DNA of 64,000 nt from positions 1,488,001-1,552,000 of the forward strand of contig NZ_CP014164.1 in the NCBI RefSeq assembly GCF_001543285.1, written 5' to 3'. Below, one piece after another: positions 9,656 to 61,226 of this stretch (the first letter of the stretch is position 1; each line of letters begins with the position of its first letter). Under the pieces are notes generated by a model that did no database searches, was not told where the DNA came from, and saw only the letters and a list, made by a program, of their open reading frames with translations. This DNA is from Aerococcus viridans. GTDB lineage: Bacteria > Bacillota > Bacilli > Lactobacillales > Aerococcaceae. The position numbers and the translations under genes were made by a program.

Positions 9656-10845
9656 ATGACGCAAACCCATGATAACACAGTTTCACGCAAGGGAAAACAT
9701 CTTTCCTACTCAGAATGTTGCCAAATCGCTATCCTGAAAAAGGAAGGCTATTCCAACCGTCAGGTTGCCAAAGTGCTGGGACGTGTTCCGCAAACCATAA
9801 ACAATGAGATTGATCACGGAACCATCACCCAGTTAAAACGCCAAACGCAAAATGGAAACGTGTATGACACCTACTATTCTGTTTATGACGCTGATGCAGG
9901 ACAGGCCTTCTATGAAAAGCAACGACTGAACTGTGGCAGACGCCCCAAATGGGCGAACACAAATGCCTTCATTGATTGGGCAGATGACAAAATGTTAAAT
10001 GAAAAATGGTCGCCGGACGTCGTGGTCGGATTTGCCAGAAAACACGAGCTGTTCGATTGTGCCATCATTCCTGGAACAACCGCTCTTTATCAATGGATTG
10101 ACCGCGGAATCATGCGAACAAAGAACATGGACTTGCTTGAAAAACTGTCCCGTAAAATCAAAGCGGTCCGCCCAGGACACCGTCCCAACAAGCGTGTTCT
10201 CGGGACGTCAATTGAAGAACGCCCTAAAGAAGTTGAAACACGGGAAACGTTCGGTCATTGGGAAATCGACACGGTAGTGGGAAACAAGACCAAGTCGGAT
10301 GCCGTGCTGCTAACGCTGGCTGAACGGCAGACACGCTTTGAAGTCATCCTAAAGTTGAACGGGAAGGACACCTAATCGGTGGACCAAGCGGTTCAACAGC
10401 TAAGAGAACGGGCTGGCGCTAACTTCGATCAATTATTTAAGACCGTGACCTCCGACAATGGCTCGGAGTTTTCGGGGCTACACGATGCTCTGCAAGATGT
10501 AGCTGACGTCTATTTCAGCCACCCCTATGCTTCTTGGGAGCGTGGGACGAGCGAAAATCAGCATAAATTAATTCGCCGTTTCGTCCCCAAGGGAAGCCCG
10601 ATTAGTGAGGTGAGCGAGAACCAGATTTTGCGGATCCAGCGTTGGATGAACGATTACCCGCGGAAAATTTTGGGTTATGCAACACCACATGACACATTTG
10701 TTCAAGCATTCAAGCAAGAACGATTGGGGGCTTGACCTATCATTACTTGACCTCGGCATGGCTTCATGTCTGGAAAGGTGGCCTGAGGCCAGACTGGTCG
10801 GAAGACTACCATCCCTCAGTTCATTATCAGAGGGTCACTGATTTA
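9555..10845 (+). mobile_element. IS30-family element (approximate ends)
   Basis: A single IS30-type transposase frame is flanked by imperfect inverted sequences. Each end contains ATAATGAACT(T/G)AG: near 9558-9575 on the plus strand, and near 10820-10840 read on the minus strand. The ends are only approximate and no target duplication was matched. The insertion lies just downstream of pseI. Confidence 0.55.
9656..10735 (+). pseudogene. IS30-family transposase with an internal stop
   Basis: The frame opens at ATG 9656 with an IS30 HTH region (YSECCQIAILKKEGYSNRQV and RVPQTINNEI). A TAA at 10373-10375 interrupts it after LKLNGKDT, and the same frame continues to 10735. Catalytic residues are visible on both sides of the stop: D in FGHWEIDTVVG, D in VTSDNGSEF and E in RGTSENQHKLI. 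One nonsense change therefore inactivates an otherwise complete 359-residue protein. Readthrough or a base-call error would restore it. Confidence 0.85.
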
Positions 10846-10946: not shown

Positions 10947-11993
10947 TTACTTAATAATATCCCAGCTTAATGGTGTTCCTCGTTCTATATCAGTAGCTGC
11001 TTTCCGATTTATTATTTCATTATAGTGCTTTGGAGGCAAACCATTACCAGGTCTTATAGATTTCACATTATCTTCTGTAAATTTATCTCCAGCTTTTATA
11101 TCTTTTACGACGAAAAGTGATCTTCCCAATAATCTATTATTTTTTTTCTTCTCACTCATGGTATAATCAACTTTTCCTAAAGCCTTTTCAGCATCTCTTA
11201 CTGAGTCCACCATTTCCTTAAACTGTTGTGGCTCTAGAGAAAAGGAAGAGTCAGGTCCACCAACAGACCTATCTAATATAAAATGTTTCTCAATTACATT
11301 AGCCCCTAATGCAATTGACAAAACAGGAACAGTAATACCTAACGTATGATCTGAAAGACCAACTTCAACTCCAAACGTTTCTTTCATATTTGGTATTGTA
11401 TTCAAATTTGCATCTTCAATCTTTGCCGGATATGAAGATGTACACTTAAGTAAAATAATTTGATCATTTCCTACACGATTACACGCTTCAACAGCCTCCT
11501 GAATATCGTTCAATGAAGCAACTCCAGTTGAAATAATCATAGGTTTACCTTTAGAAGCTGTATATTCAATTAATGGTATATCCATTATCTCATATGAAGC
11601 AATTTTATAAGCGGGCACATTTATACTTTCTAAAAAATCAACTGCTGACTTATCAAATGGTGAGGAGAAAAATATTAAACCGATGCTATTTGCATATTCC
11701 TTTAATTCTTTCTGCCACTCCCAAGGCATATGCGCTTCTTCGTATAAATCATATAAAGTTCTTCCATCCCAGATAGTTCCACCTTTGACTGTGAAATAAT
11801 CATTATCGCAATCTAATGTAATTGTGTCTGGTGTAAAGGTTTGTATTTTTATTGCATCTGCTCCAACTTCTTTTGCAGCTAAAATTGTTTTCTTGGCAAT
11901 ATTTATATCGTTCCCATGGTTTGCAGAAAGCTCTGCAATTATAAAAGTTCTCTCTTTATTGCCAATAGTATGTGAATCAATCTTAATCTTCAT
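10947..11993 (-). CDS. pseI: Pseudaminic acid synthase-type NeuB enzyme
   Basis: This enzyme condenses phosphoenolpyruvate with a 2,4-diacetamido hexose to give a C9 nonulosonic acid. The NeuB TIM-barrel blocks are present: FIIAELSANHGND, then KIQTFTPDTITLD, then IISTGVASLNDIQEAV, then GLSDHTLG. A C-terminal SAF domain starts near NRLLGRSLFVVKDI. The stretch TLYDLYEEAHMPWEWQKEL is characteristic of PseI rather than sialate or legionaminate synthases. The start at 11993 has a GGAGG site inside the end of the upstream ATP-grasp gene, which it overlaps by 11 bases. It is the last surviving gene of locus A; IS30 follows. Confidence 0.85.
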   Translation of the reverse strand: MKIKIDSHTIGNKERTFIIAELSANHGNDINIAKKTILAAKEVGADAIKIQTFTPDTITLDCDNDYFTVKGGTIWDGRTLYDLYEEAHMPWEWQKELKEYANSIGLIFFSSPFDKSAVDFLESINVPAYKIASYEIMDIPLIEYTASKGKPMIISTGVASLNDIQEAVEACNRVGNDQIILLKCTSSYPAKIEDANLNTIPNMKETFGVEVGLSDHTLGITVPVLSIALGANVIEKHFILDRSVGGPDSSFSLEPQQFKEMVDSVRDAEKALGKVDYTMSEKKKNNRLLGRSLFVVKDIKAGDKFTEDNVKSIRPGNGLPPKHYNEIINRKAATDIERGTPLSWDIIK

Positions 11994-12960
11994 TGATAGG
12001 TTCCTCCATATCAAAATAAACTTCGCTGACAGTTTTAACTCCAATTCCATTGGAATACTTGGGTGTGATTTCTAAACATGAGCCATACATTAAATCAATC
12101 CACCACTTTAGGTCTTTAAATCCAAAATAGTGACGGAATGCCAAAGTGCTAGATAGCCTTGGATTTATCTCAAACGGTAAATACTCACCATCATCATTCT
12201 TTCTAACTTGTATATTAATTGAACCTCTAAGGTTAGTTAGATTAGCGATGTTATTAGCCAATTCATCAATCTTAGGGTCTGATATCCTTCGAACAAATTT
12301 ACTTAAACTCCCATACCCTAATTCTCTCTGAAAGGCAATATTATAAACATTTTCTCCATCTGAAAAAACACCTATTGTAAATTCTTGCCTATTGTCTCCT
12401 ATTATTTCTTGAATAATACTGTTGGGGTGTTTCTTTTTGTAGTAAATAAAATCATCAGCATCTTCAATTTTTACTACTCCTTTACTACCTTGAGTAAACT
12501 TTTCTTTCAATAAAAAAGGGTAGTTTAATTGACTAGAAAATTCTTTTATATCATAAGTCTTTGGATGTTTAATTCCTTTGGCTTTAAAGAAATCAATAGT
12601 TTGCAGCTTATCCAAAAATGTATTTATAATCTCATTATGATTAATTAAAACTTTCACCTCATCGCCCAGAATAGATTTGTTTTCGCTTAATGTTTTAATT
12701 TCAATTTCCGAGCTTGGGATAATTAAGTCTATGTCATGACTATTGCAGATGTCTTTTATAAAACTTAAGTATTGTTCTTTATTATTCGCTCTAGGAGCAA
12801 TATAAAATGAATCTACATCTAGTTTATTTGCAGGATACTCGTTGATATCACACCCCACGAGTATTTTATGATACTCTATCTCATTTAAGATTTTTACAAT
12901 TCCAATGCCTATATCTCCACCTATTCCAGTAACTAAAATATTTATCTTTTTATTTTCCAT
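11983..12960 (-). CDS. ATP-grasp (carbamoyl-phosphate-synthase-like) enzyme in the nonulosonate cluster
   Basis: The 325-residue protein has an N-terminal Rossmann-like pre-ATP-grasp domain (NILVTGIGGDIGIGIVKIL). The ATP-grasp core follows: FLLKEKFTQGSKGVVKI, then IIQEIIGDNRQEFTIGV, then LPFEINPRLSSTLAFRHYFG. ATP-grasp enzymes ligate a carboxylate to an amine or similar nucleophile through an acyl-phosphate. Its position between a phosphoesterase and pseI suggests that it tailors the nonulosonic acid or its precursor, for example with an amino acid. That is inference from context. It overlaps pseI by 11 bases and the phosphoesterase gene by 11. Confidence 0.75.
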   Translation of the reverse strand: MENKKINILVTGIGGDIGIGIVKILNEIEYHKILVGCDINEYPANKLDVDSFYIAPRANNKEQYLSFIKDICNSHDIDLIIPSSEIEIKTLSENKSILGDEVKVLINHNEIINTFLDKLQTIDFFKAKGIKHPKTYDIKEFSSQLNYPFLLKEKFTQGSKGVVKIEDADDFIYYKKKHPNSIIQEIIGDNRQEFTIGVFSDGENVYNIAFQRELGYGSLSKFVRRISDPKIDELANNIANLTNLRGSINIQVRKNDDGEYLPFEINPRLSSTLAFRHYFGFKDLKWWIDLMYGSCLEITPKYSNGIGVKTVSEVYFDMEEPINED

Positions 12961-13654
12961 CTAATGGCCTCCTTAGTACATTGGAAAGATAACTTGGTTC
13001 TCCACCAACACGCTGTATATCTTCTAGTAATTGATTAATATCATACTCGACACTAACAAATTCAAACAATTTTGTACTCGTATCAAAAACTACAAACGAG
13101 GGGAACCCTCCATCCCTAGGTTGTCCAATTGATCCTGGGTTAATTATTTCACATTTCCCCTGCCTAATTTTCATAGGATAGTGGGTATGTCCTTGAAAAA
13201 CATAATCAAAGTCAATCTCAGAATATCTATCAAAATCTGAATTTGGATAAATATATTCATCTATAGGATCCCAAGGACTACCATGAATGATTTTTATTTT
13301 CAAATCATCTATCAGAATATCCTTTACCTCTGGTAAACTTCTTAAAAACTCTATATTCTCTTTCGTTATTGAACTTGAAAATTTTTCTATAGAACTACCG
13401 TATTTTTCAAAATATGATTTGGCAGCTTTTTTCTTATCAATTATATCAATAAACATTTGATCATGATTTCCTAAAACGCAATAAATGTTTTTCATATTCC
13501 GAAGGGTATCAATGACTTCATTATGATAATAATAATAACCTACAGCATCACCACAAAATATATGAACATCAATTCCTATTTCATCCATTTTGATTAAAGC
13601 TTCTTCCAATGCATATTTATTGCCGTGGATGTCCGAAAAAATTGCTATTCTCAT
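12950..13654 (-). CDS. Calcineurin-like metallophosphoesterase (YfcE type)
   Basis: All metal-binding blocks of the YfcE/MJ0936 group are present: FSDIHGNKYAL, CGDAVGYYYYHNEV, LGNHDQM, IHGSPWDP and FQGHTHYPM. The fold binds two divalent metals and hydrolyses phosphate mono- or diesters. It ends inside the ATP-grasp gene and its start overlaps the SDR stop codon. It is thus translationally coupled within the nonulosonate gene set. It may remove a phosphate from a sugar intermediate; the substrate is not visible in the sequence. ATG at 13654 is preferred over an upstream TTG. Confidence 0.8.
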   Translation of the reverse strand: MRIAIFSDIHGNKYALEEALIKMDEIGIDVHIFCGDAVGYYYYHNEVIDTLRNMKNIYCVLGNHDQMFIDIIDKKKAAKSYFEKYGSSIEKFSSSITKENIEFLRSLPEVKDILIDDLKIKIIHGSPWDPIDEYIYPNSDFDRYSEIDFDYVFQGHTHYPMKIRQGKCEIINPGSIGQPRDGGFPSFVVFDTSTKLFEFVSVEYDINQLLEDIQRVGGEPSYLSNVLRRPLDGK

Positions 13655-13658
13655 ATAA

Positions 13659-14429
13659 TCACTTACTTTCAAAAAAAGTATCGAGTTTCATAAAGTTACT
13701 ATTGACATTCCAATCATCAATAAAATTTTCTTTTATTACTTTAGCAACCGAATCCACACTACGCAATTTATGTTCTCTGTATAAATTAACAAAATCATTT
13801 TTTTTACTAAATCCTTTTGATTCTGAATTTCTTATTGATTCTTGCATTCCTGTATCCATAACTCCAGGATCAATTGATAGAATTTTTACGGCTGAGTCTT
13901 TATTGTTCTCTGATAGTGAAACTTCGAGATACATTTGAATTGCTGCTTTAGAAGTACAGTACAAAGCCCAACTATCAATTGGCTGATTATATGCTCCCGA
14001 AGAAATATTGATGATTTTCAGTTGTCTACTATTTTGATTTGCAAACCTAGTCAACTTGCTAATCATAAGTACCGGTGATAGAACATTTACTGTTAAATTG
14101 CTTTTAATATCAGTTTCTTCTAACAAATCAACTGTTTTAATTGGATGAATGGTACCAGCGTTATTAATAAGCGTTATTTTAAAATCATCTTTAAGGTTGA
14201 ATTGTAGGATTATATTATTCATCAAATCATCTACATTTTCATAGTTATTCAAATCAAATGGATATGCTAATATCTTTTGGTGATGTTTTTTATTCAACTC
14301 AGCTTTTATTTCATTTAGTTTAAATTGATCTCTAGCTATTAATATTAGCACTCTATCTTTATCAATTACTGTTCTTGCCAATGATCTTCCTAAACCTTTC
14401 CTTGCTCCAGTAATTATTACATACTCCAT
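13659..14429 (-). CDS. Short-chain dehydrogenase/reductase in the nonulosonate cluster
   Basis: This is a classical 256-residue SDR. The cofactor loop is TGARKGLGRSL, the NAG motif lies in ITLINNAGTIHP, the catalytic serine in IINISSGAY and the YxxxK pair in ALYCTSKAAIQ. The basic residues in and after the loop (ARK, R at position 33) suggest NADP(H). It sits 4 bases downstream of pseG and overlaps the phosphoesterase gene. Reductases of this type can convert one nonulosonate or amino-hexose stereoisomer into another. Whether this one modifies the sugar is inference. Confidence 0.8.
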   Translation of the reverse strand: MEYVIITGARKGLGRSLARTVIDKDRVLILIARDQFKLNEIKAELNKKHHQKILAYPFDLNNYENVDDLMNNIILQFNLKDDFKITLINNAGTIHPIKTVDLLEETDIKSNLTVNVLSPVLMISKLTRFANQNSRQLKIINISSGAYNQPIDSWALYCTSKAAIQMYLEVSLSENNKDSAVKILSIDPGVMDTGMQESIRNSESKGFSKKNDFVNLYREHKLRSVDSVAKVIKENFIDDWNVNSNFMKLDTFFESK

Positions 14430-14433
14430 ATAC

Positions 14434-15417
14434 TCACCCCATTAATTCATCTATGATTCTTTGTACACCTTTCCCATCAATAAAGTTCGAATACTTATCG
14501 CTAAGCGATACTCTATATGCTTGTTCCTTTAGAAGCTCAATTTCCTGTATGATTTGTTCTCTTAAGCTATCAGATTCCCAATTTAGTACTTTATGAACAA
14601 GATTATTTTCTAATATTGCGGATACCGTGAACTTTTGATTATCAATAACTTGAATAGGGATAAAAGGTGTACAAGTAGCTATGAGTTCATATATAGTTTG
14701 TCCTGCTGCAGTTATCGCAAAATCAGACTCCAACATTAGTTGCTTAATTTCATCACCAGTTAGATTATTATAAATTTTAACGTTATAAACGCCATTGTTT
14801 GAAATTTCTTCTAATTCGTTAGATGTGGTTCCAATTATTATTCTGAAATTTATATCAGGATACTTTGTGCAAATTTGAGTAGTGATGTCTGGCAACAAAT
14901 TTCTTATGTCTGTTCCACCCATTACAATTAAAGCGTTCTGTATGTTTTTTTCTATATAGTCTCTTTTTACATCTATAAATGGAGGGCGGAGAATAATGTA
15001 ATGAGGACCTAATAAATAAGTGATTGCTTTATCTTTAGGATAAACTATATAACTCGTATCCAAAGCTGGGTTTAAAACTATTCCTTTAGGATAGTTTAAC
15101 CGTCCAACATCATCTATGTACAAAGCTCTTTTAGAAATTTGGGAGATGATCTCGTATATTTCTAAATTAGCTTTATAAGAATCTACGATAACATAATCAC
15201 TTTTAGATATGCATTTGTATAGGTTGTTTTTATCATACCAATTCACAAATGTGAAATTTCTCTTCTTTAACAAACCAATATTATTTTCGTCTCCGTATAT
15301 AACAAGTTCGACGTTAAACCCTCTGCTTGCTACCTCATCGTATAATGAAGTACATCTAGATATATGCCCAAGACCTATATCAGGTCCACCTTCAGTAAAA
15401 ATTTTCACATTCATCAT
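14434..15417 (-). CDS. pseG: PseG-type UDP-sugar hydrolase
   Basis: PseG removes UDP from UDP-2,4-diacetamido-2,4,6-trideoxy-beta-L-altropyranose. The sequence shows its GT-B-like fold. The substrate loop is EGGPDIGLGHISRCTSLYDE, with the catalytic-type histidine in GHISRC. The second domain reads ALIVMGGTDIRNLL and ITAAGQTIYELIATCTPF. The length of about 327 residues leaves no room for the fused acetyltransferase seen in some bacilli. ATG at 15417 or 15414 follows an AGTAGGA site. The gene lies directly after pseF. Confidence 0.85.
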   Translation of the reverse strand: MMNVKIFTEGGPDIGLGHISRCTSLYDEVASRGFNVELVIYGDENNIGLLKKRNFTFVNWYDKNNLYKCISKSDYVIVDSYKANLEIYEIISQISKRALYIDDVGRLNYPKGIVLNPALDTSYIVYPKDKAITYLLGPHYIILRPPFIDVKRDYIEKNIQNALIVMGGTDIRNLLPDITTQICTKYPDINFRIIIGTTSNELEEISNNGVYNVKIYNNLTGDEIKQLMLESDFAITAAGQTIYELIATCTPFIPIQVIDNQKFTVSAILENNLVHKVLNWESDSLREQIIQEIELLKEQAYRVSLSDKYSNFIDGKGVQRIIDELMG

Positions 15418-15429
15418 TATCAATCCTAC

Positions 15430-16164
15430 TTACTTGATTTTTTTCTGTTCAATGTGGGCATTTATATCATACAATTCTGGCATTTTTTCAAACAACTTGA
15501 CAATATCTTTCAAGTAAAAATCATGAGTCCCGTGATATAAATACTTGTAGATTTGTGAAATTACTTCAAAATCATCATCTGTATCTAATGTCCATCTATA
15601 CTTTGAATAATCTGTATTATTTTTATAATAGTAAGTCCTATCAGATGTCTCATAAATGTATGGTGTAACATGTTCTCTCTGGTATTTCTCTTCTGCATGA
15701 TTAAAAGCATATTCTAATATTTTGAAAGAAAACACTTCAGTATCTAGTCCCCTTGGGTATGTTCTATTTAATACATCTGAACCACCATTTGATACAATAT
15801 CTAAATTTCCTGTGTTATAATAATCAATTATTTCATCCAATACCTTAGGATCAATCAAAGGACAATCCGAAGTGATCCGGACTACAACGTCTAAGTTATT
15901 CTCTTTGGCTGCATAATAGTATCTTGATAAAACGTCGTCTTCACTTCCTCTAAAAGATTTTACGCCACATCTTAAAGCCTCTGATTCAATCACTGCATCT
16001 CTTTCATGAGTTGTTGTTGCAATTATTATTTCATCGATTAACTTAGACTGTTTCACTCGCTCAATCACATGTTCTAACACAGTTTTTCCCTGAAGGTTTT
16101 TCATAACCTTTTCGGGTAGTCTAGTTGAGCCCATTCTTGCTTGAATTATTGCGCCTATTTTCAT
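15430..16164 (-). CDS. pseF: SpsF/PseF-like cytidylyltransferase for nonulosonic acid
   Basis: This enzyme activates the nonulosonic acid as CMP-sugar. The nucleotide-binding N-terminus is IGAIIQARMGSTRLPEKVM. Family blocks DEIIIATTTHERDAV, RGSEDDVLSRYYYAAK and RITSDCPLIDPKVL follow, with the metal-binding aspartate in the last. SpsF-type proteins (COG1861) take the PseF role in several Firmicutes. It sits 8 bases after pseC, fitting a continuous operon. Assignment as PseF rather than another CMP-sugar synthetase rests on context. Confidence 0.8.
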   Translation of the reverse strand: MKIGAIIQARMGSTRLPEKVMKNLQGKTVLEHVIERVKQSKLIDEIIIATTTHERDAVIESEALRCGVKSFRGSEDDVLSRYYYAAKENNLDVVVRITSDCPLIDPKVLDEIIDYYNTGNLDIVSNGGSDVLNRTYPRGLDTEVFSFKILEYAFNHAEEKYQREHVTPYIYETSDRTYYYKNNTDYSKYRWTLDTDDDFEVISQIYKYLYHGTHDFYLKDIVKLFEKMPELYDINAHIEQKKIK

Positions 16165-16172
16165 ATTCTTAC

Positions 16173-17363
16173 CTACTTTCGGTAATAATCTATTACTTTT
16201 TTCACTGCTACCACAACATCATTCACATCTTCATTAGACATGCTTGGGAATAGGGGTAAAGTGATCATGTTTTCATACAGTTCTTCTGCATTAGGGCATA
16301 TGCCCTTTGCATAGCCTAAATCTCTATAATAAGGATGAAGATATACTGGAATGTAATGAACATTGACACCAATATTCTCAGCTTGTAAAGCTTCAAAGAT
16401 TTCTTTCCGAGTTGTAGTTAATAACTCAGGCTTAACTTTTATAACGTAAATATGCCAGCCCGAATCTGAAAATTCTGCCTCAGATGGTGTCACTATTTCT
16501 TTTAAATCCTTAAATGCTTCATTATATTGTTCAACAATTTCTCTTCTTCGAGTGATAAAATCATTGATTTTATTCATTTGACTTGTTCCAAGCGCACTTT
16601 GAACATCAGTCAATCGATAATTATAACCAAGGTGTTGTTGTTCATAATACCAAGGACCATGATTTTCATTTAAGATTTCTTGATCTCGCGTGATTCCATG
16701 TGTTCTAAAAATCATCATCTTTTTGTATAAATTCTCACTATTTGTAGTTACAATTCCACCTTCAGCTGTTGTTATAGGTTTTACCGGGTGAAAACTGAAT
16801 TCAACCATATCCGCTTGACTACCAACTTTTCTCCCCTTATATTCGCTACCTAATGCATGTGCAGCATCTTCTATGATAATCAAATCGTGCTTATCTGCAA
16901 TTTCTTTAATTCTGTCCATATCAACAGATTGGCCTGAAAAATCTACTGGAATAATTGCTTTGGTCTTATCTGTGATTTTCTCTTCAATTCTATCTGGATC
17001 AATGTTATATGTCACTGGATCAATATCTGCGAAAACAGGAGTTCCCCCACAGTAAAGTACGGCATTGGCCGAAGCTGCAAACGTCATAGAACTGACTATG
17101 ACTTCATCACCTTCTTTTATTCCAGCCGCAAAACAAGCCATATGAAGAGCAGCAGTACCGTTTGAAACTGCAACAGCATACTTAGCCCCTACATAGTCAG
17201 CTACTTTCTCTTCAAATTCTTTTACAAAAGGACCAGTTGTTAAATAATCACCTTTTAACACATCTACAACTGCTTGTATGTCTGATTCATCTACAGTTTG
17301 TTTACCGTATGACAAATAAGTATCTCTTATCGGTTTACCGCCTAATATAGCAGGTTTATCCAT
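16173..17363 (-). CDS. pseC: PseC-type UDP-4-keto-sugar aminotransferase
   Basis: This PLP-dependent DegT/DnrJ/EryC1 enzyme transaminates the 4-keto-L-altrose intermediate with glutamate. Cofactor residues are visible in AVSNGTAALHMACFAAG, in IIEDAAHALGSEYKG and in the Schiff-base lysine block EFSFHPVKPITTAEGG. The 396-residue length is normal. The opening MDKPAILGGKPIRDTYLSYG is typical of PseC. It is 15 bases downstream of pseB, and the next gene pseF begins 8 bases later. Confidence 0.9.
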   Translation of the reverse strand: MDKPAILGGKPIRDTYLSYGKQTVDESDIQAVVDVLKGDYLTTGPFVKEFEEKVADYVGAKYAVAVSNGTAALHMACFAAGIKEGDEVIVSSMTFAASANAVLYCGGTPVFADIDPVTYNIDPDRIEEKITDKTKAIIPVDFSGQSVDMDRIKEIADKHDLIIIEDAAHALGSEYKGRKVGSQADMVEFSFHPVKPITTAEGGIVTTNSENLYKKMMIFRTHGITRDQEILNENHGPWYYEQQHLGYNYRLTDVQSALGTSQMNKINDFITRRREIVEQYNEAFKDLKEIVTPSEAEFSDSGWHIYVIKVKPELLTTTRKEIFEALQAENIGVNVHYIPVYLHPYYRDLGYAKGICPNAEELYENMITLPLFPSMSNEDVNDVVVAVKKVIDYYRK

Positions 17364-17378
17364 AATGATTCCTCCTAA

Positions 17379-18383
17379 CTATAGTCCCAACTCTTCAATT
17401 TTCTTTCTTAGTGTCTCTGTATCTATCCATTCAGTGTTTGTACCAGAGTTATACTCCCAGCCTTCTTCAATTAAAGTGCCGCCTTCTTTAAAGTAATAAT
17501 CTTTTGACCACCAAATGTAATTAGGATAAATGATGTAATGATCCCCATAATCATAGGTACCTCTTGAATCATCGCTAGTAATCATAACTTCATGAAGTTT
17601 TTCGCCTTCTCTGATTCCAACAACATTAATCTTACCACCAGGATTCATAGCTTCTGCAATATCAGTAATCGTGTATGATGGATTTTTAAATACATATGTT
17701 TCTCCACCTTTTGATTCTTCTAATGCTTTTACAACTAGATCTACTGCATCATCAAGAGTCATCCAGAATCTCGTCATTCTTGTATCTGTTATTGGAAGTT
17801 CCGTGGTACCGTTATTAAGTAACTCTCTAAAGAAAGGAATTACCGATCCTCTGCTTCCAGAAACATTTCCATACCGAACTACTGCGAATACTGTTCCTTC
17901 ATCTCCACGATAAGAATTTGCTGAAACAAATAATTTGTCTGAAACTAGCTTTGTGCCACCATAAAGGTTAATTGGATTAACCGCTTTATCTGTAGAGAGA
18001 GCAATAACTTTTTTGACACCACAATCAATTGCTGCATCAACAATATTCTGAGCTCCATGAATATTTGTCTTAATAGCTTCAAAAGGATTGTATTCACATG
18101 CGGGCACTTGCTTCATTGCAGCAGCATGAATAATATAATCTACCCCTTTGAAGGCCCTGTATAATCTATCTTTATCGCGAACATCACCAATAAAGAATCT
18201 TAATTTTGAGATCTTGTCCGGAAATTTATTACTAAAATCCTTTCTCATGATGTCTTGTTTAAACTCATCTCGTGAATAGATAATAATTTTTTTAGGGTCA
18301 AAGTTTTTAAGAACCATTTCAGTAAACTGCTTTCCAAATGAACCTGTTCCACCTGTAATTAAAATTGATTTGTTATTAAGCAT
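17379..18383 (-). CDS. pseB: UDP-GlcNAc 4,6-dehydratase (inverting), first step of pseudaminate synthesis
   Basis: An extended SDR of 334 residues with the NAD loop ILITGGTGSFGKQFTEM. PseB-specific blocks are IIHAAAMKQVPACEYNPFEAI and VIALSTDKAVNPINLYGGTK, which includes the modified active-site pattern of inverting dehydratases. It converts UDP-GlcNAc to the 4-keto-6-deoxy-L-arabino sugar used by PseC. Gene order pseB-C-F-G is contiguous and leftward. The upstream neighbour is a flippase gene, so this cluster forms the distal part of locus A. Confidence 0.9.
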   Translation of the reverse strand: MLNNKSILITGGTGSFGKQFTEMVLKNFDPKKIIIYSRDEFKQDIMRKDFSNKFPDKISKLRFFIGDVRDKDRLYRAFKGVDYIIHAAAMKQVPACEYNPFEAIKTNIHGAQNIVDAAIDCGVKKVIALSTDKAVNPINLYGGTKLVSDKLFVSANSYRGDEGTVFAVVRYGNVSGSRGSVIPFFRELLNNGTTELPITDTRMTRFWMTLDDAVDLVVKALEESKGGETYVFKNPSYTITDIAEAMNPGGKINVVGIREGEKLHEVMITSDDSRGTYDYGDHYIIYPNYIWWSKDYYFKEGGTLIEEGWEYNSGTNTEWIDTETLRKKIEELGL

Positions 18384-18412: not shown

Positions 18413-19690
18413 CTAGTTTTTATTTAATAGTACATTTTTCCAAGGCATTTTATGAACCTTTGCCGATAATATCCATACAACAACAAATTTTATAGCAAAT
18501 ATTATTGTAGTTGCTTGCGCAGCTCCTATAGCTCCAAATTCTCTTATAAAAAAATAGTTTAATACAATATTTAAAAATGCTGTAGCAAAAGTAACCATAG
18601 CCAAAGTACTATTTTTCTGTTCATAAAAAATATAGTTGACCACCATAAGGTACATCCCGTTAAAAGCATATCCTAATGCAATCCAAATCACGTAAACACT
18701 TGATTCATTAAATGCTTTACCTAAGAAAACACTTAGAAAAATTGGTGCTAATATGCCTAAACCTAAGGCAAGTAGTAGTATACCAACAAAATATATATAA
18801 GTGAATTTTACGATTTTTATTTTTGTAGTATATTGATTTTCCTTCAATTTTTCATATAGCCAAGGAACATAAGCATTATTAAAAGATGTAGACAGTAAAT
18901 TAATTATCGTCCCTACCTGATATCCCACTGTATATACACCCGTTGCAGCTAAGCCGACCATAGAGGTAATAAAAAATCTATCTGTCATTGATATAATGGT
19001 TCCAGACAAAACATGTGGTATCAAAGGAATTCCAAACATTAAAGCGTGTTTAATATATTCTTTCTTTATAACGAACTTAACCCACTTCTTCTTGATTAGT
19101 ATAAATAATGAAATTAGTGCAAACAACGCTAAAGTAATTACCATTCCATATATTCTCCCAGTATAACCTAAGCCTAAATAGACAACAAAAAAAATACTTA
19201 TACCCAAATTCAGTGAAGTTTGTATGATATTAAATATTCCATATAAAAGAGCTTTTTTCTTAACTTGAAGTAAGCTAAGTAATATACTGCAAATAAATTG
19301 AGACACTGCAAAAATTAATACACTCCATAACAATCTACTAGGAAAAGAAGCTGTTCTTGCTATAAATGCAGAGGAAAAATAGAATATAGATCCCACAAAA
19401 ATTGAATTAATCAATAAAATAAAAATACAATTACCAGCATACTCACTTATGTTAATTTTCTCACGATCATAATATTGTCTGGTTATAGCACCATTTAAAT
19501 TCAAGCCTATAAAAGGCACTATGAATGTTACTAAAAGAGTAAACATTGAGACTATACCATAATCTTCAGGAGTTAAATGTCTTGTTAATATTGGTAGCAT
19601 TAAAAATGGTATAGCTGAATTTAATATACTGGTTAAAGTATATATACTGGTATTCTTTATTAAGCTATTATTTAAATACTTCTTATGCAT
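18413..19690 (-). CDS. Wzx-type polysaccharide flippase, locus A
   Basis: The 425-residue integral membrane protein has about twelve hydrophobic segments. The opening TSILNSAIPFLMLPILTRHL and the block EDYGIVSMFTLL are typical of MATE-like oligosaccharide flippases. It would move lipid-linked repeat units across the cytoplasmic membrane before polymerisation by Wzy. It lies between the candidate nonulosonate transferase and the pse genes. Substrate specificity cannot be read from the sequence. Confidence 0.85.
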   Translation of the reverse strand: MHKKYLNNSLIKNTSIYTLTSILNSAIPFLMLPILTRHLTPEDYGIVSMFTLLVTFIVPFIGLNLNGAITRQYYDREKINISEYAGNCIFILLINSIFVGSIFYFSSAFIARTASFPSRLLWSVLIFAVSQFICSILLSLLQVKKKALLYGIFNIIQTSLNLGISIFFVVYLGLGYTGRIYGMVITLALFALISLFILIKKKWVKFVIKKEYIKHALMFGIPLIPHVLSGTIISMTDRFFITSMVGLAATGVYTVGYQVGTIINLLSTSFNNAYVPWLYEKLKENQYTTKIKIVKFTYIYFVGILLLALGLGILAPIFLSVFLGKAFNESSVYVIWIALGYAFNGMYLMVVNYIFYEQKNSTLAMVTFATAFLNIVLNYFFIREFGAIGAAQATTIIFAIKFVVVWILSAKVHKMPWKNVLLNKN

Positions 19691-19776: not shown

Positions 19777-21129
19777 TTATCTACTGCCTTCAATCATATC
19801 ATTAATATAATCTAATTCTGTTTTTATACTAAAATCGTGTATTTCATAATCAATATTTTTTCGTTGTTTCATTAATATGTCGTTGTTATATTTCGTGTTC
19901 AAAATTCTTTTTAACAACTCATTTTTGATGTCGTTATAGTGCACTATAGATTCTGGCAGATTTCTAAACAATCTATTTCCACAAAGAGCTTCTCTATTAA
20001 TATTCATATTTAACTCGATTACTGAACACCCTGCAATCATTGCTTCTAATGAAAGAGTAGTTAAATAACCAATAAAAATTTTTGAACTATATAAAACCAT
20101 AAAATTATCATTCTCATTGATGATATAATTTACATTTAAATCATTAGATGTAATTATATCTTGAATAATTTCTTCGTAATGCCTTCTATTCAACGATGGA
20201 TGTAATTTAACTATTACATTGCTTATTCCTTCTAAATCATTTAAACTATCTTGAAATGATTTAAAAGTATGGTAGATTATTTCTCTATTTGTTTTTTCGT
20301 CTATTGGATTGAGCGCTAATGTAATATTTCTTCTAGTCATATCATGTGGCTTTGTTAATAGATAGTTAAACTTATCTGTGCCAGATATAATAATTTTTTG
20401 CTCTGGAATGTATTCTTTCAAAGTATCGTATGAACTTTTCCCCCATACCATAACATACGTAGAATAAATATATTTAAATAATCCTGGTGTAGGATATGGA
20501 ATCATACCATGTTGATGAGTTACGCTTATCACACCTACTTTATTTGCAGCTTTAGTAAAAATTTGATCATAGATATGAAAATCTTGAGTAGTAAATATAA
20601 CTTCTGTATCCAATTCAACAAGTATCTTCTTAGCTTTTTCATATAAGAATATACATTTATTAATGAGTAAGTTTTCTTCAAAATTTAGATTAGAATTTGA
20701 CTTTTTAATTCCTATGAATTTAGGATATTTCAAACTCAATACATCAAACCCTTTTATTTTATAATACGCTGCTACTCTTTTACTATTTGTAACTATCAGT
20801 GTATATTGCTTGTTTTCATTATTCGTAGTTTTCTGTATTAGGTTATCTAAAATACTAAAATGTCTTGAATCCGCTATATCAAACATTTGGACATAAACAT
20901 ACTTTTTATTCTTATATTTTAATTTAGGTAATACATTGCTATAAAATCTCTCCGATGGTATTTGTTTTGCTACCCAAGATATAAGTTTTTTAATATATAA
21001 CTTTAACTTGTTTGTGCTAGAAGTAAAATTTTCTTCGTAAAAATGGGTCAATAAAAACTCTGTAGCATTGATGTCATCATGAATAATTTCATGTTTTATT
21101 TTGTTTTCTGCGTTCAAAATTTTATCCAT
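19777..21129 (-). CDS. Candidate nonulosonate/sialic-type glycosyltransferase (KpsS/LipB- or polysialyltransferase-like)
   Basis: The 450-residue protein looks like a GT-B enzyme. Its diagnostic blocks are VGVISVTHQHGMIPYP, with a conserved QHG; NVIVKLHPSLNRRHYEEII, with an HP-type motif; and GYLTTLSLEAMIAGCSVIELN near the C-terminus. QHG and HP motifs occur in enzymes that use CMP-activated keto-sugars, such as bacterial Kdo- and sialyltransferases, and in CDP-polyol polymerases. With pse genes just downstream it is the best local candidate for the enzyme that adds the pseudaminic-acid-type sugar. The alternative is a CDP-glycerol-type transferase. It lies 4 bases after a GT2 gene. Confidence 0.55.
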   Translation of the reverse strand: MDKILNAENKIKHEIIHDDINATEFLLTHFYEENFTSSTNKLKLYIKKLISWVAKQIPSERFYSNVLPKLKYKNKKYVYVQMFDIADSRHFSILDNLIQKTTNNENKQYTLIVTNSKRVAAYYKIKGFDVLSLKYPKFIGIKKSNSNLNFEENLLINKCIFLYEKAKKILVELDTEVIFTTQDFHIYDQIFTKAANKVGVISVTHQHGMIPYPTPGLFKYIYSTYVMVWGKSSYDTLKEYIPEQKIIISGTDKFNYLLTKPHDMTRRNITLALNPIDEKTNREIIYHTFKSFQDSLNDLEGISNVIVKLHPSLNRRHYEEIIQDIITSNDLNVNYIINENDNFMVLYSSKIFIGYLTTLSLEAMIAGCSVIELNMNINREALCGNRLFRNLPESIVHYNDIKNELLKRILNTKYNNDILMKQRKNIDYEIHDFSIKTELDYINDMIEGSR

Positions 21130-27059: not shown

Positions 27060-28375
27060 TTAAGAAGCAATGCTTTTTTTATAAAATGCATTAATAGATG
27101 TCATTACAATAACTAAATACCCGAGACCTATTGGGTTGTTTAAAAATGGATTCACTGAAGAGATAATACACAGCATTAGTAATCCAATTATTATTGATTT
27201 AACATGTGTTGCTTCTCTTAAATTCAATTTCCTGCAGGATTTTAAGCCTACAAATAAGTTTTTGAGTATGATATATACATAAGATATAAAACCTAAAATC
27301 CCCATATTCACTAGCAATTCCAACCAGAAAAGTTCAAATTTCACCATTTCTCTAGTTGCAATTTCATTTATGAATAAAATTCTCACACCAAACCCTTTTC
27401 CAAATAACATATTCTCAAACCATACATTAATCATAGTTAATAATTGATTAGATTAGATTTGATTATATAGCTACTATCCGTTCTGCTAATACGATTAACC
27501 AAAGTAGATGATAAGAACTCTGAAAAAATCAATGTTACAGCTATTCCAACAACTATTGTAAGTAGTAAAGCAGCTAATTTTTTACTTCCCTTTGAAAATG
27601 AAATTACCAGCAATATCCCAAAAACTAAAGACACCCATATTCCCATTGTCATAGTTGTTAAACACCCAACAAGGAGTATAAACATTCTAATGATAGAAAA
27701 AAAAGTTCTTTCATTTGATAAACTAACATATTTATAAAGCTCATGTATAAATGCTATAGCCATATAAGGACTAGTCTTTAAAAAAACACTAGGCAACCCA
27801 TATCTCATTGATAAATGTCCGTATTCTAAATTCATAAGTAATGGGTTGATTACACTGTATAGAGATGGTCTCGCACTAAGAGCTACGAAAATTCCTATGG
27901 AGAACAATGCAAGAAAAAAAGCAGCTTTATTAAAGATGTTCAAAGCTATTTTTGCCTTCTCTGTTGTATTAATAAATAGTGTGAATGGAAAGAATATCAA
28001 TAAATACAAGTATCCTTGGCTCGATAAAACAATGTCAGATATAGGATATCCCCTTATCATCCCATTCATTATTGAGATTAAATAGAAAAAGAAAAACACC
28101 ACCACAGGTATATGAAAAATGTTCTTTTCTACTTTGAAATTATTACGAATGATTTTAAATATAAAATATAAAATCGCCAACAAAAACAGAATATATCTAA
28201 TTGTTAATGGACCAAAAGTCAGTAATCTTCCTGCACCACCAAGTACGAGTTCGATGACTATAATGATTGCCAATAAATTAGGTTTAGTACTTAAGTGCTT
28301 ACCGTTTTGAGTTATACTATTCTTTAAAGAAATCTCTCCAGTCAAACTTTCTACCTCCAATATTGGAAATGACAT
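27060..28375 (-). pseudogene. Wzy-type O-antigen/capsule polymerase, frameshifted at a 5-bp tandem repeat
   Basis: The first part (28375 to 27437) is a membrane protein with about nine hydrophobic segments that ends abruptly in KSNLINY. The second part (MINVWFENMLFGKGFGVR onward) is the C-terminal Wzy loop and last membrane segments in another frame. At 27446-27465 the plus strand reads GATTA GATTA GATTT GATTA. Removing one 5-bp unit gives the continuous reading KSNQLLTMINVWFEN. The gene therefore looks reversibly off by repeat slippage. Start may also be TTG at 28345 behind GGAGG. It is locus A's only polymerase. Confidence 0.8.
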
Positions 28376-33432: not shown

Positions 33433-34756
33433 AGTCAAGTCCATAATCCTGTGTAAAATACTATACAATGTTTTACCGGTCTCTCATTGATCAAACTTAA
33501 TATATTTTCTTGTAGAACTGAGCCATTCGTCATGAAGGTCTATAAGGACAGCTCCAATTAATCGATTGGCAGACGTTCGGTTGGGAAAAATCCGAATAAT
33601 CTTTTCTCTTCTGCGGACTTCCTGGTTCAGTCGTTCAAGAAGGTTGGTGCTTTTTAGCCGATTGTGACCATTTCCGATAACCGTGTATTGAAAGGCATCT
33701 TCGAAGCCATTATCCAATGTTTCGCAAGCTTTTGTATATTTAGACTGGTCGATATATTCACCGACTAAGGCATTCTTAGCTGTTCGAGCGAGTTCAATAT
33801 CCGTAAACTTAAAGATCGCTTTTACTGCTTCTCTAAACGGTTTTGAATTCTTTTTTGGAATGGAACTGAAGATGTTTCTTAAAAAATGGACCTGGCATCT
33901 CTGCCAACTCGCGTTGGTAAATGACTTACGAATTGCAGACACTAGGCCTTTATGGGCATCAGAAATGATGAGTTCTGTCCCCTGTAGACCGCGTTCTTTT
34001 AAGTATTCAAAGAAGATGGACCATGTGTCATCACTTTCTTCATTTTGGATCATGAAGCCAATGATTTCACGATCACCACCTTCTGTTATCCCGATCGCAA
34101 TATGGCAGCTTTTAGAAAGCACTCGATGGTCCTCACGGACTTTTATGTAGAGAACATCAGTCATCAGATAAGGATAACTCGTACCTGAGAGTGAACGGTT
34201 CTGCCATTCGTTGACCATCGGGTCTAACTGCTCAGTCAGGCTAGAAACAAAAGATTTCGATACCGATTTTCCACATAGCTCTTCAACAATCTTTGAAACT
34301 TTACGTGTCGAAACGCCTGAAACATACATCTCAAGCATTGAAGCGAGCAGTGCCTTTTCATTTCGCTGATAACGCTCAAACACCGTCGGTGAAAATTCAC
34401 CATCACGTGTTCTAGGCACTTTTAACTCGAGTGTGCCCACACGAGTCGTAAAGTCTCGCTCATAATAGCCATTTCTTTGACTCTGACGACTTTCTGAACG
34501 TTCATAGTCATCGGCTTGAATATATTCTGTTCGTTGATTTTCCATCAATTGGTTGAAAACAGTGGTCAAAATATTTTTAGAAACTTCATCTTTTACCGAA
34601 TGTTCAATAATACTTTGAACCTCTTCGTTGTTCAGTGTAAAATGTACTTGGGTCATGTAACGTCCTCCTGGGTATGTTTTTGTGGTTAAAAACATTGTAC
34701 CGTAAAAGGGCTGTTACATGGCCTTTTATCTTTTACACAATTATATGGACTTTATC
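33433..34756 (-). mobile_element. IS256-family element, copy 1, complete with target duplication
   Basis: The element is 1,324 bp with imperfect 26-bp terminal inverted repeats containing AAGTCCATA and TGTGTAAAA. It is flanked by the direct repeat TGACATTT (33425-33432 and 34757-34764), an 8-bp target duplication typical of IS256. A copy with the same length and an identical transposase lies inverted at 59903-61226. Confidence 0.95.
33484..34656 (-). CDS. IS256-family (MULE-type) transposase, copy 1
   Basis: A full-length 390-residue transposase with the mutator-type DDE arrangement. The first aspartate lies in YPYLMTDVLYIKVRE, the second in ELIISDAHKGLVSAIR, and the C/H block in WQRCQVHFLRNIFSSIP. 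The glutamate lies in STNLLERLNQEVRRRE. ATG at 34656 is favoured over an upstream ATG because of the AGGAGG site. The protein is identical residue for residue to copy 2, so at least one of the two moved recently. Confidence 0.95.
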   Translation of the reverse strand: MTQVHFTLNNEEVQSIIEHSVKDEVSKNILTTVFNQLMENQRTEYIQADDYERSESRQSQRNGYYERDFTTRVGTLELKVPRTRDGEFSPTVFERYQRNEKALLASMLEMYVSGVSTRKVSKIVEELCGKSVSKSFVSSLTEQLDPMVNEWQNRSLSGTSYPYLMTDVLYIKVREDHRVLSKSCHIAIGITEGGDREIIGFMIQNEESDDTWSIFFEYLKERGLQGTELIISDAHKGLVSAIRKSFTNASWQRCQVHFLRNIFSSIPKKNSKPFREAVKAIFKFTDIELARTAKNALVGEYIDQSKYTKACETLDNGFEDAFQYTVIGNGHNRLKSTNLLERLNQEVRRREKIIRIFPNRTSANRLIGAVLIDLHDEWLSSTRKYIKFDQ

Positions 34757-59902: not shown

Positions 59903-61226
59903 GATAAAGTCCATATAATTGTGTAAAAGATAAAAGGCCATGTAACAGCCCTTTTACGGTACAATGTTTTTAACCACAAAAACATACCCAGGAGGACGTT
60001 ACATGACCCAAGTACATTTTACACTGAACAACGAAGAGGTTCAAAGTATTATTGAACATTCGGTAAAAGATGAAGTTTCTAAAAATATTTTGACCACTGT
60101 TTTCAACCAATTGATGGAAAATCAACGAACAGAATATATTCAAGCCGATGACTATGAACGTTCAGAAAGTCGTCAGAGTCAAAGAAATGGCTATTATGAG
60201 CGAGACTTTACGACTCGTGTGGGCACACTCGAGTTAAAAGTGCCTAGAACACGTGATGGTGAATTTTCACCGACGGTGTTTGAGCGTTATCAGCGAAATG
60301 AAAAGGCACTGCTCGCTTCAATGCTTGAGATGTATGTTTCAGGCGTTTCGACACGTAAAGTTTCAAAGATTGTTGAAGAGCTATGTGGAAAATCGGTATC
60401 GAAATCTTTTGTTTCTAGCCTGACTGAGCAGTTAGACCCGATGGTCAACGAATGGCAGAACCGTTCACTCTCAGGTACGAGTTATCCTTATCTGATGACT
60501 GATGTTCTCTACATAAAAGTCCGTGAGGACCATCGAGTGCTTTCTAAAAGCTGCCATATTGCGATCGGGATAACAGAAGGTGGTGATCGTGAAATCATTG
60601 GCTTCATGATCCAAAATGAAGAAAGTGATGACACATGGTCCATCTTCTTTGAATACTTAAAAGAACGCGGTCTACAGGGGACAGAACTCATCATTTCTGA
60701 TGCCCATAAAGGCCTAGTGTCTGCAATTCGTAAGTCATTTACCAACGCGAGTTGGCAGAGATGCCAGGTCCATTTTTTAAGAAACATCTTCAGTTCCATT
60801 CCAAAAAAGAATTCAAAACCGTTTAGAGAAGCAGTAAAAGCGATCTTTAAGTTTACGGATATTGAACTCGCTCGAACAGCTAAGAATGCCTTAGTCGGTG
60901 AATATATCGACCAGTCTAAATATACAAAAGCTTGCGAAACATTGGATAATGGCTTCGAAGATGCCTTTCAATACACGGTTATCGGAAATGGTCACAATCG
61001 GCTAAAAAGCACCAACCTTCTTGAACGACTGAACCAGGAAGTCCGCAGAAGAGAAAAGATTATTCGGATTTTTCCCAACCGAACGTCTGCCAATCGATTA
61101 ATTGGAGCTGTCCTTATAGACCTTCATGACGAATGGCTCAGTTCTACAAGAAAATATATTAAGTTTGATCAATGAGAGACCGGTAAAACATTGTATAGTA
61201 TTTTACACAGGATTATGGACTTGACT
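59903..61226 (+). mobile_element. IS256-family element, copy 2, complete with target duplication
   Basis: The 1,324-bp element has the same ends as copy 1 at 33433-34756 but the opposite orientation. It is flanked by GTAACGAG at 59895-59902 and 61227-61234. It sits inside an IS3 orfA. Confidence 0.95.
60003..61175 (+). CDS. IS256-family (MULE-type) transposase, copy 2
   Basis: The 390-residue product is identical to that of copy 1, including the aspartates in YPYLMTDVLYIKVRE and ELIISDAHKGLVSAIR and the glutamate in STNLLERLNQEVRR. The AGGAGG site at about 59991 fits ATG 60003. Identity between copies implies recent transposition or gene conversion. Confidence 0.95.
   Translation: MTQVHFTLNNEEVQSIIEHSVKDEVSKNILTTVFNQLMENQRTEYIQADDYERSESRQSQRNGYYERDFTTRVGTLELKVPRTRDGEFSPTVFERYQRNEKALLASMLEMYVSGVSTRKVSKIVEELCGKSVSKSFVSSLTEQLDPMVNEWQNRSLSGTSYPYLMTDVLYIKVREDHRVLSKSCHIAIGITEGGDREIIGFMIQNEESDDTWSIFFEYLKERGLQGTELIISDAHKGLVSAIRKSFTNASWQRCQVHFLRNIFSSIPKKNSKPFREAVKAIFKFTDIELARTAKNALVGEYIDQSKYTKACETLDNGFEDAFQYTVIGNGHNRLKSTNLLERLNQEVRRREKIIRIFPNRTSANRLIGAVLIDLHDEWLSSTRKYIKFDQ

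Follow-up and report, generated by a model that had tools for sequence, protein, structure and literature searches.

An ATP-grasp ligase and phosphatase partner in a PseH-less pseudaminate-type gene cluster of Aerococcus viridans: a candidate N-acylation system

In the biosynthesis of pseudaminic acid (Pse), the product of PseC is a UDP sugar with a free 4-amino group, which PseH would acetylate. What becomes of this amine in a cluster that lacks PseH? The question is raised by a run of eight genes in Aerococcus viridans, located in a stretch of 64,000 nucleotides of contig NZ_CP014164.1 (positions 1,488,001 to 1,552,000), hereafter called the window. Read on the minus strand from position 18383 to 10947, the run consists of pseB, pseC, a pseF-like and a pseG-like gene, the genes of a short-chain dehydrogenase/reductase (SDR), a metallophosphoesterase (MPE), and an ATP-grasp ligase, and pseI. 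Like the canonical CMP-Pse5Ac7Ac pathway (PseBCHGIF), it unites PseB, PseC, a PseG-like hydrolase, PseI, and a cytidylyltransferase in one operon, but it has no PseH, and the SDR, the phosphoesterase, and the ATP-grasp enzyme stand between pseG and pseI. The main idea of a first-pass annotation, namely that the ATP-grasp enzyme adds an N-substituent other than the usual one, is probably right.

A pseudaminate gene run without PseH

PseB, PseC, and PseI scored above the curated NCBIfam cut-offs, whereas PseG and PseF fell below theirs (Table 1), so that calling all five recognisable, as had been done in the first pass, was sound for the former three and generous for the latter two. The identities and placement of the three inserted genes were confirmed by profile matches. 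The absence of PseH also held: no GNAT acetyltransferase was found among the listed open reading frames (ORFs) of the run, and no GNAT fusion was seen on PseG. Across the genome, the PseH profile (TIGR03585) gave a top score of 43.9 bits, with nothing over the cut-off of 93.1. Sixteen places in the genome matched the GNAT domain (PF00583); among the 10 such proteins scanned, two passed as RimI, the others were PaiA-, ArsN1-, or RimL-like below cut-off, and none passed as PseH. The most PseH-like of them, encoded far from the cluster, scored 44.4 bits as PseH and 44.6 bits for another GNAT family.

The active sites of the SDR, the MPE, and the ligase are intact in the window. The metal motifs of the MPE (D-x-H, GD, GNH, H, H-x-H) were kept in 26 aligned MPEs apart from one position, the first His of H-x-H, which is Asn in two of them (L027 and L052; the labels L and G denote loci and genomes), and the MPE of the window has both His. 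Residues K118, K152, E264, and N266 of the ATP-grasp were invariant in 26 of 26 aligned sequences, and the glycine motif and YxxxK were kept in 11 aligned SDRs, the catalytic Ser position being Ser or Thr (Ser in the window). The ligase falls in the PRK12767/NF009402 'carbamoyl phosphate synthase-like' ATP-grasp family, above the family cut-off and with its catalytic residues present. The solved relatives by sequence are 2pn1 for the ATP-grasp, 3rqz and 3qfm for the MPE, and 5if3 and sepiapterin reductases for the SDR.

Within the window's family, PseI exceeded its cut-off in one of 76 genomes, this one only. A genome from the same phylum and a different class (G563, locus L139) turned out to have the identical eight-gene content and order. 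Across 7505 bp, the two blocks are 82.9% identical in DNA sequence, and the similarity stops no more than 60 bp from either block end in a compared slice that carried 46 and 117 bp of flank; the flanking ORFs of L139 read as unrelated to those of the window. The best PseH score in G563 was 37 bits. The transfer of the block as a unit with no GNAT suggests that it does not need one.

The ligase-phosphatase pair in other genomes

The first-pass annotation had treated SDR-phosphoesterase-ATP-grasp-pseI as a conserved block, and a survey bore out the recurrence of its central pair. Searching genome contigs for the MPE gave at least 525 confirmed loci, of which 80 were kept. Among the best 30 (L026-L055), MPE and ATP-grasp occurred as separate genes in 27; in L041, on a contig labelled as a nanoarchaeal metagenome-assembled genome (binning unverified), they are fused in a 552-residue ORF (453-2111) followed directly by PseI, the contig of L051 stops inside the MPE, and in L054 no ATP-grasp was seen. 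None was detected at the threshold used in the 50 lower-scoring MPE loci, and no ATP-grasp relatives were found in the viral contigs scanned. Together with L022 (found through its ATP-grasp), L139 and L149 (found through PseI), and the window, at least 31 loci, mostly found via the MPE and not all independent (the ATP-grasps of L040 and L042 are identical, and L036 and L046 are close), carry separate MPE and ATP-grasp genes, 24 of them with a PseI of at least 300 bits. A plasmid locus outside this set, L214, found through its ATP-grasp, has both enzymes, and in L030 their order is reversed and PseI is absent. In the window's phylum, which we take to be Bacillota, the MPE subfamily scored above 250 bits in three of 398 genomes, the window's included, all three with the ATP-grasp, and the next score was 188. 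Such recurrence in unrelated genomes excludes chance for this observation.

The gene directly 5' of the MPE was variable. Of the 30 loci with the MPE before the ATP-grasp, 14 have a classical SDR at this place, 7 an extended-SDR-like protein (confirmed by Pfam in one locus, L036), and 4 a methyltransferase, while the other 5 have PseG, PseI, or no gene there; an oxidoreductase thus lies immediately 5' in 21 of 30, and in Jeotgalibacillus (L026) the pair has no adjoining SDR. Because of this variability, the ligase-phosphatase pair is the core, and the oxidoreductase is a frequent partner. Loci L036 and L046, on contigs labelled Pelagibacteraceae, combine a PseI-like synthase, an extended-SDR-like protein, the MPE, and the ATP-grasp with apparent amidotransferase, HisH, and HisF genes.

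We then determined whether PseH occurs beside the ligase. The survey of PseI gave 47 regions in the 398 genomes, 13 with an ATP-grasp and 34 without. Among regions no shorter than 12 kb, PseI had a PseH domain within 10 kb in one of 8 with an ATP-grasp versus 21 of 27 without (Fisher p=0.0017), and in all 47 regions the counts were 2 of 13 versus 21 of 34 (Fisher p=0.008); these tests take the regions as independent, though some share a family (e.g., L180 and L181), the presence of PseH was read by hand from a match list ending at about E 1e-5, so that weaker nearby matches may be missed, and 7 of the 13 regions with neither ATP-grasp nor PseH are short (3.1-10.5 kb). The PseG-PseH fusion ORFs of 506-612 residues that occur in PseI regions were counted. 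In relatives, the mutual exclusion of ATP-grasp and PseH is strong but not strict; the two of the 13 regions that break it are L149 and L164.

A phosphatase, MPE or HAD, was present in 11 of the 13 PseI regions with an ATP-grasp and in none of the 34 without, the HAD profile having been seeded by motif from ORFs of the same regions after HADs were noticed beside the ATP-grasp. The remaining two lie on contigs only 5.3 and 8.9 kb long; in the latter (L176), both neighbours of the ATP-grasp are visible and neither is an MPE or a HAD. When loci were centred on the ATP-grasp (30 of 46 places), an MPE lay within 1.5 kb in 3 and a HAD in 18. Other folds also appeared: the ATP-grasp of L023 is followed by an inositol-monophosphatase-family protein, and one in Sinorhizobium lies between a PHP-domain protein and an NAD(P) oxidoreductase. 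Like L023, two further loci with distant ATP-grasp relatives have no MPE; L024 has a HAD, and in L025 neither kind was seen. A phosphatase is therefore the usual partner of the ligase, exchanged for other folds, a feature that the first-pass annotation overlooked. In a tree of 58 ATP-grasps, one change was needed between MPE- and HAD-paired enzymes, with the MPE-paired ATP-grasps of L030 and L034 on the HAD side but outside the HAD group. This single switch indicates few evolutionary events, not dozens.

In five ATP-grasp loci, the visible 3.9 kb lacked PseI and instead encoded a DegT-type aminotransferase together with a bacterial sugar transferase (called by Pfam in L198 and L203 and by reading in L199, L204, and L207), which points to 4-amino sugars as the acceptor. 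In L187-L189, the ATP-grasp and a DegT-type aminotransferase adjoin a WbqC-family protein (by Pfam for L187), and neither an MPE nor a HAD lies inside 1.5 kb; these loci are possibly another acyl system.

A proposed acylation route and its alternatives

ATP-grasp amide ligases spend ATP to couple an amine to a carboxylic acid. We infer the following route, including which amine is the acceptor, in what order the steps occur, which acid is used and that it is phosphorylated, and what the SDR does. PseB and PseC would produce UDP-2-acetamido-4-amino-2,4,6-trideoxy-L-altrose, as in the usual pathway; its 4-amino group, which is to become N7, would then be linked by the ligase through an amide bond to some carboxylic acid that is not acetate. 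That a phosphatase is the usual partner of the ligase suggests that the acid carries a phosphate. It would most likely be a phosphorylated hydroxy acid, the leading candidate being 3-phosphoglycerate, an abundant compound that would become a glyceroyl group once dephosphorylated. The MPE would strip the phosphate, the SDR (whose place is taken in relatives by an extended SDR or a methyltransferase) would tailor the acid or the acyl group, and PseG, PseI, and PseF would complete CMP-Pse5Ac7-acyl, for example, the 7-N-glyceroyl form, for a surface polysaccharide. As the product, 7-N-glyceroyl-Pse is our leading guess. The scheme as a whole, in which the ligase acylates the amine of PseH with a probably phosphorylated acid that the phosphatase unmasks, seems to us evenly poised. 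A broader claim can be formulated, that of a widespread and previously unrecognised two-step N-acylation system for amino sugars, in which the 4-amino group first receives 3-phosphoglycerate, a phosphorylated hydroxy acid, from the ATP-grasp, and a phosphatase devoted to this task, drawn from as many as four folds (MPE, HAD, PHP, or inositol monophosphatase), then unmasks the acid so that N-glyceroyl or related sugars result; this we put forward tentatively, and with some doubt.

Amide formation in place of acetylation is supported by precedents in Neisseria, Tannerella, and Shewanella, although these do not fix the acid itself. In Neisseria, PglB2 (ATP grasp/phosphoglycosyltransferase) leads to a 4-glyceramido sugar and PglB (acetyltransferase) to diNAcBac (PMC11130364, PMC6959607); the ORF after pglB2 has no known function (PMC3338715). 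In that system (the GATDH glycan), an ATP-grasp takes the acetyltransferase's place at N4 of a UDP-4-amino-4,6-dideoxy sugar, and in the window, too, an ATP-grasp lies within a UDP-4-amino-sugar pathway without an N-acetyltransferase. The likeness is one of gene content; PglB2 feeds bacillosamine-type O-glycans, not a nonulosonic acid. Tannerella forsythia makes Pse5Am7Gra, a Pse with a 7-N-glyceroyl group, and has unassigned ORFs among its pse genes (PMC6120980, PMC6388019); the glyceroyl gene is described there as elusive. Shewanella oneidensis is reported to have no clear PseH orthologs and an ATP-grasp gene, and makes a mono-N-acetyl Pse with a nitrogen-free moiety, C9H16O7 plus methyls (PMC3765264). 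Its sfmABCDE genes resemble the window in the lack of a clear PseH and in having a NeuB-type synthase, an SDR, and an ATP-grasp, but they include a 412-residue ATP-grasp_4 protein, a thiamine pyrophosphate (TPP) enzyme, and a methyltransferase, with no phosphatase in the operon as described. Among the eight genes of the window there is no TPP enzyme and no methyltransferase, and the ligase passes ATP-grasp_3 and ATPgrasp_Ter but fails ATP-grasp_4 (21.2 bits; cut-off, 27). Campylobacter jejuni carries a di-O-methylglyceric acid Pse involving Cj1295 (PMC3068675), similar to the product predicted here in joining Pse with glyceric acid; it is, however, a derivative of Pse5Ac7Ac with other genes implicated. 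Since an ATP-grasp adjoins a NeuB homologue in Clostridium acetobutylicum (PMC4000134), the neighbourhood of ATP-grasp and synthase is not wholly unseen before. In the open-licence literature, we found nothing linking pseudaminic acid with a metallophosphoesterase.

Several observations weigh against the proposed route. Nine of the 30 ATP-grasp-centred loci have neither MPE nor HAD inside 1.5 kb, these being the only two kinds profiled. The presumed pocket residues R212, S270, T272, and R276 differ between MPE- and HAD-paired ATP-grasps, and given that these also form separate groups, glycerate is not transferable from one group to the other and the acid may differ. Glycerate alone, moreover, leaves the SDR unexplained. 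Among the precedents, the T. forsythia cluster has an annotated pseH despite its 7-N-glyceroyl product, and the Shewanella ligase is described as a different ATP-grasp type. Ligase and acetyltransferase also coexist. A GNAT was found in 10 of the 31 MPE/ATP-grasp loci, in a scan that overlooked PseG-PseH fusion ORFs; L149 combines the ATP-grasp with a GNAT (52 bits as PseH), a class-III aminotransferase, and an aldo-keto reductase; in L164 (5042-6592), a GNAT is fused to the ATP-grasp N terminus beside a HAD phosphatase and PseI; and L023 (978-6823), which lies outside the 47 PseI regions, encodes a genuine PseH, above the cut-off at 145.7 bits, alongside PseG and PseI and an ATP-grasp only distantly related to the window's (26% identity). 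The L023 run also carries a PIG-L deacetylase, and our guess is that an acetyl group is put on and taken off there and the amine re-acylated; PIG-L-like ORFs are present also in PseI regions without an ATP-grasp. The GNATs were confined to 10 of the 13 MPE/ATP-grasp loci with a class-III aminotransferase or aldo-keto reductase, versus none of the 18 without those genes, which indicates that plain clusters, the window's included, go without a PseH-like gene, whereas GNAT and ligase can coexist in fuller ones.

As a separate observation, a second module of Pse clusters consists of a class-III aminotransferase, a KidO-like aldo-keto reductase, and a GNAT, and it occurs both where the MPE/ATP-grasp pair is present and where it is absent (L032, L037, L038, L044, L149, and others).

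The coexistence of GNAT and ligase, and L023 above all, also speaks for a different explanation, in which a divergent acetyltransferase elsewhere in the genome supplies the PseH activity and the trio of SDR, phosphatase, and ligase is responsible for an additional modification, in which an amino or hydroxy acid is attached elsewhere on the molecule, following deacetylation, or to a different sugar of the polysaccharide. The genome offers 16 GNAT places for such an enzyme, and the PseH-like GNATs of other Pse clusters also score under the cut-off (28-67 bits in the six scanned). Nevertheless, the eight-gene block stands alone in G563 with a best PseH of 37 bits, ATP-grasp and PseH anticorrelate in PseI regions, and the best match in the window's own genome, at 44 bits, lies far from the cluster and equally fits another GNAT family. 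We consider this explanation unlikely, though not negligibly so. The notion that the ATP-grasp adds a different N-substituent is favoured by the conserved pairing, the PseH anticorrelation, the mobile cassette, and the precedents; some relatives keep both enzymes.

The acid might instead be an unphosphorylated amino or hydroxy acid, with the phosphatase clearing a phosphorylated by-product or freeing the acid before ligation and the SDR making the acid from a keto acid. PylC ligates an amino acid, and the PylC-like domain order of the ligase would agree with this, as would the oxidoreductase 5' of the MPE in most loci, which would suit synthesis of the acid. Nothing direct opposes it, and it differs from our preferred route only in the order of steps and the nature of the acid; we judge it improbable. 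It is far less probable still that the SDR or extended SDR alters the stereochemistry of the sugar itself to give a Pse epimer, the ligase and phosphatase being secondary. An oxidoreductase is indeed common beside the pair, but the L026 pair without an SDR and the methyltransferase in the SDR's place in 4 of 30 loci indicate that the SDR step is not the core function. The altered stereochemistry that the first-pass annotation had offered as an option is neither favoured nor contradicted by these data.

Setting of the cluster and its meaning

The pse run closes a polysaccharide locus that also contains a Wzx flippase and apparent glycosyltransferase and rhamnose genes (Table 1). The pseI ORF as listed extends to 12050, its probable start being the ATG at 11993 after GGAGG; with this start, ATP-grasp and PseI overlap by 11 nt, and MPE and ATP-grasp overlap by 11 nt as well. 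PseG and the SDR are separated by 4 nt. Between the SDR and the MPE, a TTG start gives a 14-nt overlap, and an ATG near 13654, the likelier MPE start, gives a gap of about 4 nt. Translational coupling, claimed for all of these genes in the first pass, is clear for the last three and, given the 4-nt gap and the alternative starts, likely for the rest. A 450-residue protein upstream may be the Pse transferase, as suggested by its weak BFO_1060-type match and by the size of GtfS, the Pse transferase of T. forsythia, which has 445 residues (PMC6120980).

Table 1. Genes of the pse run and its upstream neighbours in the window
Feature	Position	Strand	Evidence
pseB, UDP-GlcNAc 4,6-dehydratase (inverting)	17379..18383	-	TIGR03589 528 bits, cut-off 408
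pseC, 4-aminotransferase	16173..17363	-	TIGR03588 514 bits, cut-off 424
pseF-like cytidylyltransferase	15430..16164	-	CTP_transf_3 131 bits; TIGR03584 34 bits, cut-off 206
pseG-like UDP-sugar hydrolase, 329 aa	14434..15423	-	TIGR03590 136 bits, below cut-off 153.6
SDR oxidoreductase, sepiapterin-reductase-like group	13659..14429	-	catalytic S/Y/K present
MPE, YfcE/Metallophos_2 superfamily	12950..13672	-	TIGR00040 67 bits, PF12850; metal motifs intact
ATP-grasp ligase: PylC-like N-terminal domain + ATP-grasp_3 + ATPgrasp_Ter	11983..12960	-	NF009402 227 bits, cut-off 218
pseI, pseudaminic acid synthase	10947..11993	-	TIGR03586 515 bits, cut-off 340
Wzx-type flippase, directly upstream of pseB	18413..19690	-	PF01943; surface polysaccharide context
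450-aa protein, weak BFO_1060-type glycosyltransferase match	19777..21129	-	NF046086 29.8 bits, cut-off 200

Several transposase-like ORFs lie in the window, among them two Mutator-family ORFs (33484-34695, minus strand, and 59964-61175, plus strand) that encode identical 403-residue proteins in opposite orientation. The one adjoining pseI (9656-10735, plus strand), which we take to be IS30-like, matched HTH_38 only (Pfam, first part) and has an in-frame stop at 10373-10375. The idea that PseH was lost through this gene was not supported, since G563 holds the same eight genes together, also without a GNAT. A membrane-protein gene (27060-28375, minus strand), polysaccharide-polymerase-like by reading, is broken into two ORFs in different frames, the longer of which had no Pfam match.

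N-acyl variation of Pse shapes the bacterial surface as seen by hosts and phages, and to our knowledge few enzymes behind its non-acetyl N-acyl groups are known. The eight-gene cassette is a widely distributed variation on the known Pse pathway. It names a specific ligase-phosphatase pair, present from Jeotgalibacillus to contigs binned as archaea, and makes the question testable with purified enzymes. It is also a warning that calling Pse5Ac7Ac from pseB, pseC, pseG, pseI, and pseF alone can give the wrong sugar. If true, the two-step N-acylation would account for the 'glyceroyl' gene function that is still missing from the synthesis of Pse7Gra-type nonulosonic acids.

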